A stretch of DNA of 33,565 bases. Origin: Segetibacter sp. (GTDB taxonomy: Bacteria > Bacteroidota > Bacteroidia > Chitinophagales > Chitinophagaceae). This document shows, one piece after another, positions 8,726 through 11,951 of the stretch (position 1 is its first letter; each line of letters starts with the position of its first letter). Under the pieces are notes generated by a model that did no database searches, was not told the DNA's origin, and was given only the letters and a program-made list of their open reading frames with translations. The position numbers and the translations under genes are program-made. The stretch spans positions 1 to 33,565 of the forward strand of contig JAOQAJ010000301.1 of NCBI GenBank assembly GCA_025963675.1, written 5' to 3'.

Positions 8726-9718
8726 CTAATTCAAAAGGTCATTCTTCAATAAATATTCTGCAATCTGAATAGCATTTGTTGCAGCTCCTTTACGAAGGTT
8801 ATCGCTTACGATCCACATATTGAGTGTGTTTGGCTGGCTCTCGTCTCTTCTTAGTCTGCCAACGAAGACGTCGTCTTTTTCGTGCGCCCACAAAGGCATT
8901 GGATAAACCTGCTCCTGGATGTTGTCCTGTAAAGTAACTCCGTCAGACTCAGAAAGCAATTGCTTCACTTCATCAAGATCAAAATCATTTTCAAACTCCA
9001 CATTCACGCTTTCGCTATGTCCGCCCATTACAGGAATACGCACTGTAGTTGACGTCAATCGAATGCTATCATCCTGCATAATTTTTCTGGTCTCGTTCAC
9101 CATTTTCATTTCTTCCTTGGTGTAGCCATTCTCAAGAAAAACATCTATTTGAGGGATCACATTGAGATCGATTGGATACTTATAAGCCATTGGACCTTCC
9201 TCATTTTTTCTTTCATTCATAAGTTGTTCAACCGCTTTCACACCCGTACCCGTAACACTTTGGTATGTGCTAACCACAACCCTTGTGATCTTATATTTTT
9301 TATGCAAAGGCTGCAGAGCAACCACCATCTGTATGGTAGAGCAATTAGGATTTGCAATAATTTTATCTTCTTTAGTCAGTACTTCAGCATTCACCTCAGG
9401 CACTACCAGTTTTTTATTTGGATCCATTCTCCAGGCACTCGAGTTGTCAATTACAGTTATTCCAGCCTCTGCAAACTTTGGCGCCCATTCAAGTGATGTA
9501 CTTCCGCCTGCCGAGAAAAGTGCTACATCAGGTTTCGCTGCAATTGCGTCTTCCATGCTGACCACTTTATATTTCTTTCCCTTAAAATCAATTTCTTTCC
9601 CAACCGATTTTGCTGAAGCAACCGGCAATAATTCTGTTACCGGAAAATTTCTTTCTGTCAGAACCTGCAACATTTTTGTTCCGACAAGGCCTGTGGCGCC
9701 TACAACTGCAACTTTCAT
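8726..9718 (-). CDS. asd: Aspartate-semialdehyde dehydrogenase
   Basis: 330 aa; VAVVGATGLVGTKMLQVL, FSAGGSTSLEWAPKFAEAG, IANPNCSTIQMVVALQPLHK (active-site Cys), VMGGHSESVNVEF. Confidence 0.95.
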   Translation of the reverse strand: MKVAVVGATGLVGTKMLQVLTERNFPVTELLPVASAKSVGKEIDFKGKKYKVVSMEDAIAAKPDVALFSAGGSTSLEWAPKFAEAGITVIDNSSAWRMDPNKKLVVPEVNAEVLTKEDKIIANPNCSTIQMVVALQPLHKKYKITRVVVSTYQSVTGTGVKAVEQLMNERKNEEGPMAYKYPIDLNVIPQIDVFLENGYTKEEMKMVNETRKIMQDDSIRLTSTTVRIPVMGGHSESVNVEFENDFDLDEVKQLLSESDGVTLQDNIQEQVYPMPLWAHEKDDVFVGRLRRDESQPNTLNMWIVSDNLRKGAATNAIQIAEYLLKNDLLN

Positions 9719-9784: not shown

Positions 9785-9808
9785 CATCGTTGTGTCACTC
9801 ACTTGTAC
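9785..9808 (+). repeat. Dispersed repeat copy D (CATCGTTGTGTCACTCACTTGTAC)
   Basis: 24 nt identical to copy E; GCCAACAT box upstream. Confidence 0.9.
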
Positions 9809-9829
9809 TTTTTCGTTCTTTATTGAACA

Positions 9830-9916
9830 TTGTCCTTTGGACATTGAACATTGAACATTCAGTTTCAAACCTGAGAAATGTTCAATATTCAACGTTCAAT
9901 AATCAATGTTCAATTT
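9830..9916. repeat. Direct and inverted iterations of a TTGAACATT/AATGTTCAA motif
   Basis: ATTGAACATTG...ACATTGAACATTGAACATTC...AAATGTTCAATATTCAACGTTCAATAATCAATGTTCAATT read directly. Confidence 0.8.
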
Positions 9917-9969: not shown

Positions 9970-9999
9970 AAAAAAGGCCTTCCGGTTAGGGAAGGCCTT
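9970..9999 (-). terminator. Minus-strand intrinsic terminator / attenuator hairpin upstream of asd
   Basis: On the minus strand AAGGCCTTCC-ctaacc-GGAAGGCCTTTTTT: perfect 10-bp stem, 6-nt loop, T-run. Confidence 0.75.
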
Positions 10000-10229
10000 A
10001 CTATTATTTATACATGTACAAACGCAGTAACGGCTTCCCTTAAGGGAGCTGTTTCTTTGTAGGTTTTGTATTTGTAATTATTTGTATCACCGCCGCGAAA
10101 ATAAATACAAAAAAAACGAATGACAAAATTTTTTTCCCGACATAGATTCTAAATGCTTTTATATTATTTAAATTTTTAATCCTTGTAAAAGGACAGTATA
10201 TTTAAGATGCAGCATCCAAAAAGCTGTTT

Positions 10230-11951
10230 ATGCAAAAACTTCTGCTAATCTTAATTGCCTTTTGTTTTCTTTTTTTCTTTAATGTAACAGGCCAAACTCC
10301 TCAACGATTTGATATTGTGATTGATGAAATACTCGCGGACCCAACTCCTGTTATTGGTTTACCAAATACCGAATTCGTCGAAATTAAAAACACAAGCGGA
10401 AAAAATATAAACGTGCAGGGCTGGAGGTTAAATAGTCTGCATACAAGAAGCTCGTCCTTTCCTTCTTACCTGTTAGCCGCTGATAGTTTTCTTATCATCT
10501 GCAATTCTGCCAACAGTTCATCATTTACGCCTTTTGGAAAAGTCATCGGAATTTCATCATTTCCTGCGTTAGATAATGCGGGCACCACTTTGTCTCTCAC
10601 ATCGAAAGAAGGAGTAACGATGCATTCGGTTAGTTACAATAATACGTGGTTTCAAAATGATGTAAAAAGTAATGGCGGCTGGAGTTTAGAAATGATTGAC
10701 CCAAAGAATCCTTGTTCAGGCTTTAGTAACTGGAAAGCGAGTACATCTGCAACCGGTGGATCGCCGGGTACAAGAAATTCTATTGATGCTAAAAATCCTG
10801 ATAAGATAGCTCCGGCGTTAGTAAGATCATATGCAATCGACGGTTTGTCCGTTGTGCTAACATTCAGCGAACCCGTTGATAGCGCCGGGTCTTCAATAGC
10901 TTTAAACTTCAATATCAGTGATGGTATTGGCTCTCCTATCAGTGCAACGGCATTAGCTCCCGATTTCACTAATGTTAAACTTAACTTTTCACACACCTTA
11001 TCAGACACTAAAGTATATACGGTAATGGCTAATAATGTTGCTGACTGCAGCGGTAATATTATTCACGCAGCTAATTTTGCCAGAGTTGGTCTTGCCAGTG
11101 TCGTCGACACATTTGATGTAATCATCAATGAAATATTATTTAATCCAAAACCGTTCGCAGTTGATTATGTTGAGATTTTCAACCGTAGCAAGAAGGTATT
11201 TAAACTAAAAGATTTTTACATAGCAAATCGATCTTCAGTAACCAATGCTTTAGGCAGCCTTCGGCAATTAACAACTGAAGATATTTTACTCTTTCCGGGA
11301 GACTTTTTTGTTATTAGTGAAAATGCCCCTGTTGTTAAGGCAAACTATGCTGCTCACAATCCTGATAATTTCATAGATGCAGTAATGCCTTCCTTACCGG
11401 ATGATGAAGGTGTGTTTGTGCTGCTGAATTTTCAAGGGAAAATTGTAGATGAGTTGCACTATTCATCTAAGTGGCACTTTGCATTAATAAATAATGAAGA
11501 AGGAATTTCGCTTGAAAGAATCGATTATAACAAGCCAACTCAAAATAAAGACAATTGGACATCTGCAGCATCAACAGTTGGTTTTGGAACCCCCTCCCAA
11601 CAGAATAGTCAGTTCAGAACCGATCTTTCTTTAAAGGCAGACATTACGATAACACCAAAAACTTTCTCACCTGATAATGATGGGTTTGATGACTTTACCA
11701 TAATTAACATTAAAATGTCCGATCCTGGTTATGTCGCAAACATCACCATTTTTGATGCTTCAGGCAGACCAGTAAGATACCTTGCTAAAAATGCAATCCT
11801 TGCTTCGACAGGAACAATCAGATGGGATGGATTAGATGATAAATTCCGTAAAGCGCCGATAGGTGTCTATGTAGTGTTTACAGAAGTATTTAATTTAAAC
11901 GGAAAGAAGAAATCGTTTAAAAATACAGTTGTAGTGGCAGCGAGGTTTTAG
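10230..11951 (+). CDS. Secreted lamin-tail-domain (LTD) protein with C-terminal FlgD-Ig/gliding-type domain
   Basis: 573 aa; signal peptide; two LTD-like units (IVIDEILADPTP...EFVEIKNTSG and VIINEILFNPKP...DYVEIFNRSKK); SPDNDGFDDF...IRWDGLDDKFRKAPIGVYVVF. Confidence 0.8.
   Translation: MQKLLLILIAFCFLFFFNVTGQTPQRFDIVIDEILADPTPVIGLPNTEFVEIKNTSGKNINVQGWRLNSLHTRSSSFPSYLLAADSFLIICNSANSSSFTPFGKVIGISSFPALDNAGTTLSLTSKEGVTMHSVSYNNTWFQNDVKSNGGWSLEMIDPKNPCSGFSNWKASTSATGGSPGTRNSIDAKNPDKIAPALVRSYAIDGLSVVLTFSEPVDSAGSSIALNFNISDGIGSPISATALAPDFTNVKLNFSHTLSDTKVYTVMANNVADCSGNIIHAANFARVGLASVVDTFDVIINEILFNPKPFAVDYVEIFNRSKKVFKLKDFYIANRSSVTNALGSLRQLTTEDILLFPGDFFVISENAPVVKANYAAHNPDNFIDAVMPSLPDDEGVFVLLNFQGKIVDELHYSSKWHFALINNEEGISLERIDYNKPTQNKDNWTSAASTVGFGTPSQQNSQFRTDLSLKADITITPKTFSPDNDGFDDFTIINIKMSDPGYVANITIFDASGRPVRYLAKNAILASTGTIRWDGLDDKFRKAPIGVYVVFTEVFNLNGKKKSFKNTVVVAARF

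Follow-up and report, generated by a model that had tools for sequence, protein, structure and literature searches.

A probable lysine-responsive leader-peptide attenuator upstream of asd in Segetibacter and other Chitinophagaceae

Leader-peptide attenuation is a classical mechanism of transcriptional control, and a 2004 study by Vitreschak is said to have described Bacteroidetes/Chlorobi cases for branched-chain amino acids, histidine, threonine, tryptophan or phenylalanine. The Bacteroidota phylum hardly uses Shine-Dalgarno sequences. In lysine biosynthesis dapA is the first lysine-only step, whereas asd also feeds threonine, methionine and isoleucine. The enterobacterial thr leader (Rfam RF00506) and the trp, his, phe, leu and ilv attenuators combine a leader peptide containing codons for the product, a stop codon by segment 2 of the RNA, and an antiterminator and terminator that exclude one another; the asd leader described here resembles them in each respect. 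For Flavobacterium psychrophilum, the main text of PMC9723704 presents clues to leader-peptide attenuation, with structured 5' elements at, for example, hisG and pheA. Lysine genes are under lysine riboswitch control in 'other species' (PMC1262725).

Here we analysed the region preceding asd in a 33,565-nt stretch of Segetibacter sp. DNA (the window). The asd leader, itself on the minus strand, is flanked by asd and by a divergent lamin-tail-domain gene (10230-11951, plus strand). asd is convergent with clpX and is without a co-directional neighbour downstream. The features referred to below are as follows.

8726..9718, minus strand: asd, aspartate-semialdehyde dehydrogenase, 330 aa, the presumed controlled gene (Pfam PF01118 and PF02774, ORF list)
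10124..10127, minus strand: TTTG, predicted -33 element of a Bacteroidota primary-sigma promoter (sequence; conservation in leaders)
10096..10103, minus strand: TATTTTCG, predicted -7 box, consensus TAnnTTTG (sequence; conservation in leaders)
10091, minus strand: predicted transcription start, giving a 5' UTR of ~1 nt (from the box placement in the main text of PMC9723704)
10040..10090, minus strand: leader frame GTG...TAA, (V)IQIITNTKPTKKQLP (sequence; frame and peptide conservation in 132 leaders)
10065..10070, minus strand: outer part of segment 1, TACAAA, pairing with TTTGTA at 10022-10017 (sequence; outer 1:2 covariation, 132 leaders)
10043..10048, minus strand: inner part of segment 1, CTCCCT, pairing with AGGGAAG around the stop codon (fold)
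10032..10040, minus strand: segment 2, AGGGAAGCC, antiterminator 5' arm (2:3 covariation)
10017..10022, minus strand: 3' arm of the outer 1:2 helix, TTTGTA (sequence, covariation)
9988..9997, minus strand: segment 3, GGCCTTCCCT, antiterminator 3' arm and terminator 5' arm (covariation, sequence)
9970..9999, minus strand: intrinsic terminator 3:4 with U-tract (sequence; 3:4 covariation)

An earlier sequence-only reading had placed a promoter here, and its elements are present as described, with a 20-nt spacer separating TTTG from TATTTTCG. Among 132 distinct leaders a T-rich or TTTG element is conserved ~36-41 nt 5' of the start codon, and 101 of the 132 carry a TAnnTTnG box 5-9 nt 5' of it. 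The main text of PMC9723704 places the Flavobacterium box, consensus TAnnTTTG, at -12 to -5. Because of this placement the start is predicted at ~10091, one base 5' of the GTG (10090), and the box-to-start gap in the 101 leaders predicts a 5' UTR of ~1-5 nt. The attenuator transcript is predicted to be nearly leaderless. The position of the GTG almost at the transcript start had been counted as a weak point of the locus, but this closeness is itself a conserved feature.

The 16-codon leader frame of the window, which had been read correctly base for base, encodes VIQIITNTKPTKKQLP followed by a TAA stop codon (10042-10040, minus strand) inside CTCCCTTAAGGGAAG, in hairpin 1:2. Lysine codons lie at 10066-10064 and, as a Lys-Lys pair, at 10057-10052 (minus strand), alongside threonine, isoleucine and asparagine codons. 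The consensus of the peptide core is K-H-T-K-R-T-K-K in the 132 leaders; the window copy reads K-P instead of the K-R of its relatives. Of the ATGs within 36 nt 5' of the core, 223 are in frame with it, compared with 0 and 4 in the other frames. The core frame contains no in-frame stops, the other two 247 and 96. Entropy rises over codon positions 1, 2 and 3 (0.41, 0.78 and 1.11 bits), so that third positions vary most, with free AAA/AAG wobble at lysine and wobble among ACA, ACC, ACG and ACT at threonine, and this pattern holds also at c6-c8, outside the outer 1:2 helix. Lysine makes up 24% of leader residues against 13% in translated spacer, and a KK dipeptide occurs in 123/132 leaders. These statistics indicate that the frame is under selection as a peptide. 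All leaders entered the set through either a nucleotide model or an ORF filter, and such selection carries some bias towards frames; since the frame bias is so large, this selection is an unlikely cause of the signal.

Hairpin 1:2, the alternative 2:3 pairing and the perfect 3:4 terminator, all part of the initial proposal, were recovered at the positions given above. The terminator AAGGCCTTCC-CTAACC-GGAAGGCCTT (9999-9974) is a perfect stem with six T at 9975-9970 (minus strand). The 131-nt leader RNA folds better than 200/200 shuffles (z -3.15), and predicted energies in the window are -14.5 kcal/mol for the 2:3 duplex, -16.9 kcal/mol for the 3:4 hairpin and -7.1 kcal/mol for the inner 1:2 hairpin. 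The outer 1:2 helix is shortened here to TACAAA:TTTGTA, compared with CATACAAAACGT:ACGTTTGTGTATG in relatives; this shortening and the K-P exchange count against the attenuator reading.

Covariation was assessed across the 132 leaders by comparing the pairing energy of each sequence with that obtained with permuted partners. Own partners paired far better for 2:3 (z -11.5), 3:4 (z -17.1) and the outer 1:2 helix (z -13.2), whereas two control pairings that had not been proposed gave z values of 0.3 and 0.2. Such permutation tests leave shared ancestry in, which weighs against the attenuator, although the control pairings are subject to the same ancestry; so does the conservation of the core DNA, part of which is structural because the core also pairs with the downstream arm. 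Compensated variants include GGAGAAG/CTTCTCC, GGAAAGG/CCTTTCC and GGGGC/GCCCC. In an alignment of 34 sequences, four of the five base pairs in helix 2:3 vary in both partners, and the signal disappears when the partner is shifted out of register. As judged from these alignments, the 2:3 antiterminator and the 3:4 terminator are mutually exclusive and each co-varies. Comparison of asd upstream regions among relatives, suggested as a check by the sequence-only reading, thus shows co-varying 1:2, 2:3 and 3:4 pairings together with conserved lysine codons, rather than conservation of the terminator alone.

We simulated the effect of a ribosome on these pairings by letting it cover 16 nt before and 12 nt after the A-site codon, with segment 4 not yet made. 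As long as the A site lay within the core, up to and including Lys-Lys, segment 2 paired with a mean share of 0.81 of segment 3 (132 leaders). This share was 0.47 two codons beyond the pair, 0.17 three codons beyond it and 0.035 with the A site on the stop codon, where all 132 leaders had a lower value. In this model, a ribosome stalled at the control codons would free segment 2, and one at the stop codon would cover it. Because the simulated share falls beyond it, the Lys-Lys pair is among the last codons where a stall would give antitermination. When the ribosome was omitted, an equilibrium model gave a mean 2:3 share of 0.61 for asd leaders and 0.86 for the window; formation of the antiterminator in many leaders under these conditions argues against the mechanism proposed here. 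In a classical attenuator hairpin 1:2 favours termination while the leader is untranslated; the outer 1:2 helix does co-vary, but with 2:3 still able to form in this model a protective role of 1:2, and the basal behaviour of untranslated RNA, can be put forward only tentatively.

We consider it about 85% probable that the asd leader (120 nt) is a ribosome-mediated transcription attenuator with charged lysyl-tRNA as its main signal. Transcription would begin ~1 nt 5' of the leader frame, and a ribosome would start on a transcript that hardly has a 5' UTR. With ample lysine, it would reach the stop codon and cover segment 2, the 3:4 terminator would form and asd would not be transcribed. When lysyl-tRNA is short, it would stall at the lysine codons and leave segment 2 free to pair with segment 3 while segment 4 is still to be transcribed, and RNA polymerase would read into asd. 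Such an attenuator would very probably let the bacterium make Asd only when lysine is short. Transcription and translation of the leader, lysine as the signal in vivo and the direction of the response are what we infer here. The anatomy, the selection on the peptide frame, the covariation of three pairings, the placement of the stop codon and the association with asd and dapA were computed. The classical ribosome-mediated attenuator first suggested for this locus is supported by the selected frame, the co-varying and exclusive 2:3 and 3:4 pairings and a stop codon at which a ribosome would cover segment 2.

Among 40 relatives searched at the DNA level, members of the same genus and family carried the element. 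It lay upstream of asd in the 10 related genomes first examined, and the copies all had a start codon, a common peptide ending and a terminator. Querying named genomes with the asd protein placed the family as Chitinophagaceae and added more diverged copies in Limnovirga, Sediminibacterium, Niastella, Flavihumibacter and others, cultured carriers including Limnovirga soli and Sediminibacterium roseum (L039, L042); in the same scan, no such leader was seen at asd in Mucilaginibacter, Pedobacter, Flavobacterium, Dyadobacter and Spirosoma. From 34 aligned copies we built model R1, which is mostly a sequence model because RNAalifold retained just five pairs of the MAFFT alignment, those of 2:3. 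R1 matched 196/299 Chitinophagaceae genomes in 76/104 genera, with asd at 102 of 110 fetched loci and dapA at 7 of the other 8. Phylum-wide, the strong form was confined to Chitinophagaceae, and weak matches outside the family were thrA leaders, ilvD leaders or places without clear assignment. Weak second matches at four loci (L283, L284, L285 and L287) were set aside as they showed no convincing leader, and the DNA search found no second copy in the genome of the window. Conservation upstream of asd is much stronger evidence than any single-sequence statistic.

A gap of about 250 nt containing repeats had been listed as a further weakness. It is real in the window (255 nt), but few genomes share it and many have ~20-100 nt. 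Between terminator and asd, TTGAACATTGAA units form an imperfect inverted repeat of 38 nt at 9822-9914 that is 82% complementary; it is missing in most relatives. A dispersed repeat, GTACAAGTGAGTGACACAACGATG, occurs in the window at 9785-9808 (minus), 13626 (minus), 21792 (minus), 23987 (plus) and 28987 (plus), and has 356 copies with <=3 mismatches in the same genome, where the reversed control pattern has none. Related copies precede asd in several relatives.

Where a genome has two strong R1 matches, the second precedes dapA (L149, L150, L153, L155, L157, L158 and L161), and further dapA leaders were found at L270-L274 and L276. These leaders retain lysine, as in KKHTKQVKKHS, and have mostly valine at c6 where asd leaders have threonine. 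Two of them, MNLIKKYSSKKNISEREDA and MNSIKKYACKKNIFQREDA (L271 and L274), are without any threonine codon. In Segetibacter itself dapA directly follows an accA-like reading frame without a leader of the asd kind, so the lysine regulon of the genus may be asd alone. The lysine riboswitch (RF00168) was found in none of 120 family genomes nor in the window, and positive-control genomes were matched.

Other leaders turned up in these searches. The weaker R1 matches in the family include nine hisG leaders with histidine runs. In the genome of the window, a leader 5' of hisG (L305) reads MNSNLHKSHHHILP and has a TATATTTG box 4 nt before its ATG and a terminator; it has no Rfam match and, from its sequence, appears to be a histidine attenuator built like the asd leader. 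Upstream of thrA in the same genome (L306) a Thr/Ile-rich frame, VTTIITTTTTL-stop, precedes a weak hairpin and has no clear ATG, GTG or TTG start. Thr/Ile-rich thrA leaders of another family (f19; L260, L265 and L266) likewise have no ATG at the usual place and possibly use a non-canonical start. Leader ITVIINVIGTKYRPGK upstream of ilvD (family f40; L261, L262, L268 and L269) has a terminator of the type seen at asd and is probably an Ile/Val attenuator. In general, the ilvD and thrA frames of other families read without a clear ATG, those at ilvD being rich in Ile/Val codons. That the control codons follow the product at hisG, thrA and ilvD supports lysine at asd and dapA.

Because the lysines of K-x-x-K-K are invariant, the element also precedes dapA and some dapA leaders are threonine-free, lysine is the likely signal of the asd attenuator as judged from its codons. 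Of the aspartate-family control codons first proposed, lysine proved conserved, and the set narrows chiefly to it. The same attenuator might instead sense threonine, or threonine and lysine together, which we regard as unlikely. The conserved threonine codons that asd leaders keep speak against a purely lysine-specific device: threonine occupies c3 in 100/125 (80%) and c6 in 82/125 (66%) asd leaders, with Ile or Asn often at c6 instead, the window has Thr, Ile and Asn codons, and asd serves threonine, methionine and isoleucine too. Lysine is more constant, however, at the two final core positions K1 and K2 (116/125 and 112/125). The element of lysine-only dapA, with its c6 valines and its two threonine-free leaders, and the separate Thr/Ile-rich frame 5' of thrA in the same genome also disfavour this alternative. 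Threonine may nevertheless add to the lysine signal at asd.

We give little credence to an independent small RNA that lies before asd by coincidence, the alternative named in the sequence-only reading and now less likely. A promoter and terminator of its own and a size of ~120 nt would suit such an RNA, and in Sinorhizobium meliloti both the RNA and the peptide of the trp attenuator have functions in trans (PMC7298713), but the strict same-strand linkage to asd or dapA is unexplained by it, and a plain small RNA has no use for 2:3 covariation. The attenuated ~120-nt RNA could have an additional role in trans.

Less credence still is due to a riboswitch or protein-bound RNA switch that acts independently of translation, the frame being incidental to a conserved RNA. 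The core does pair with the downstream arm and is conserved at the DNA level, and helix 1:2 takes in part of the frame. The ATG frame bias, the lack of in-frame stops and the codon-position pattern, including c6-c8 outside the outer helix, are at odds with this explanation, as are the cognate codon changes in the hisG, thrA and ilvD leaders and the lack of any Rfam riboswitch at gathering score. A chance association of an A-rich spacer with a terminator, conceivable in an A+T-rich region where the motif first noticed was short, is refuted by conservation, frame statistics, covariation and footprint geometry.

The ribosome-mediated, lysine-responsive attenuator was then compared with described systems. 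At gathering score Rfam reported one tRNA only in the window. In a permissive scan of the window Thr_leader (RF00506) scored 20.3 bits and Phe_leader (RF01859) 34.4 bits, the latter mostly on the terminator, against a gathering score of 55 each; these sub-threshold leader families match mainly the terminator and were rejected. As none of the leaders is in Rfam, they are presumably unannotated in many genomes. The kind of attenuator is known and the lysine version apparently undescribed: we found no described lysine attenuator in the open-access literature. On balance we favour the combined view that the asd leader is the first ribosome-mediated attenuator specific for lysine, a Chitinophagaceae Lys-Lys leader on a nearly leaderless transcript that controls asd and in some genera dapA, that it replaces the lysine riboswitch, and that it is one of several similarly built Bacteroidota leaders (hisG, thrA, ilvD). 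If so, lysine joins the amino acids sensed by attenuation, the lysine codons may explain control of the lysine pathway in a family without the lysine riboswitch, and the leader offers a testable model of how attenuation proceeds when a transcript has hardly any 5' UTR.

Compared with the enterobacterial thr leader, the asd element controls asd or dapA, uses lysine rather than Thr/Ile codons, is predicted to have almost no 5' UTR and has no apparent sequence relation. The lysine riboswitch (L-box, RF00168) likewise controls lysine pathway genes in cis in other phyla, but its aptamer senses free lysine. The S. meliloti trpL attenuator has a 14-codon leader, a transcript that begins at the ATG and an attenuated RNA of small-RNA size, much as predicted for the asd element; it differs in its Trp codons, its target trpE(G) and its occurrence in Alphaproteobacteria (PMC7298713). 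The F. psychrophilum leaders belong to the same phylum, have the same proposed mechanism and are likewise absent from Rfam, and the main text of PMC9723704 names hisG and pheA among its examples but no lysine, asd or dapA case.
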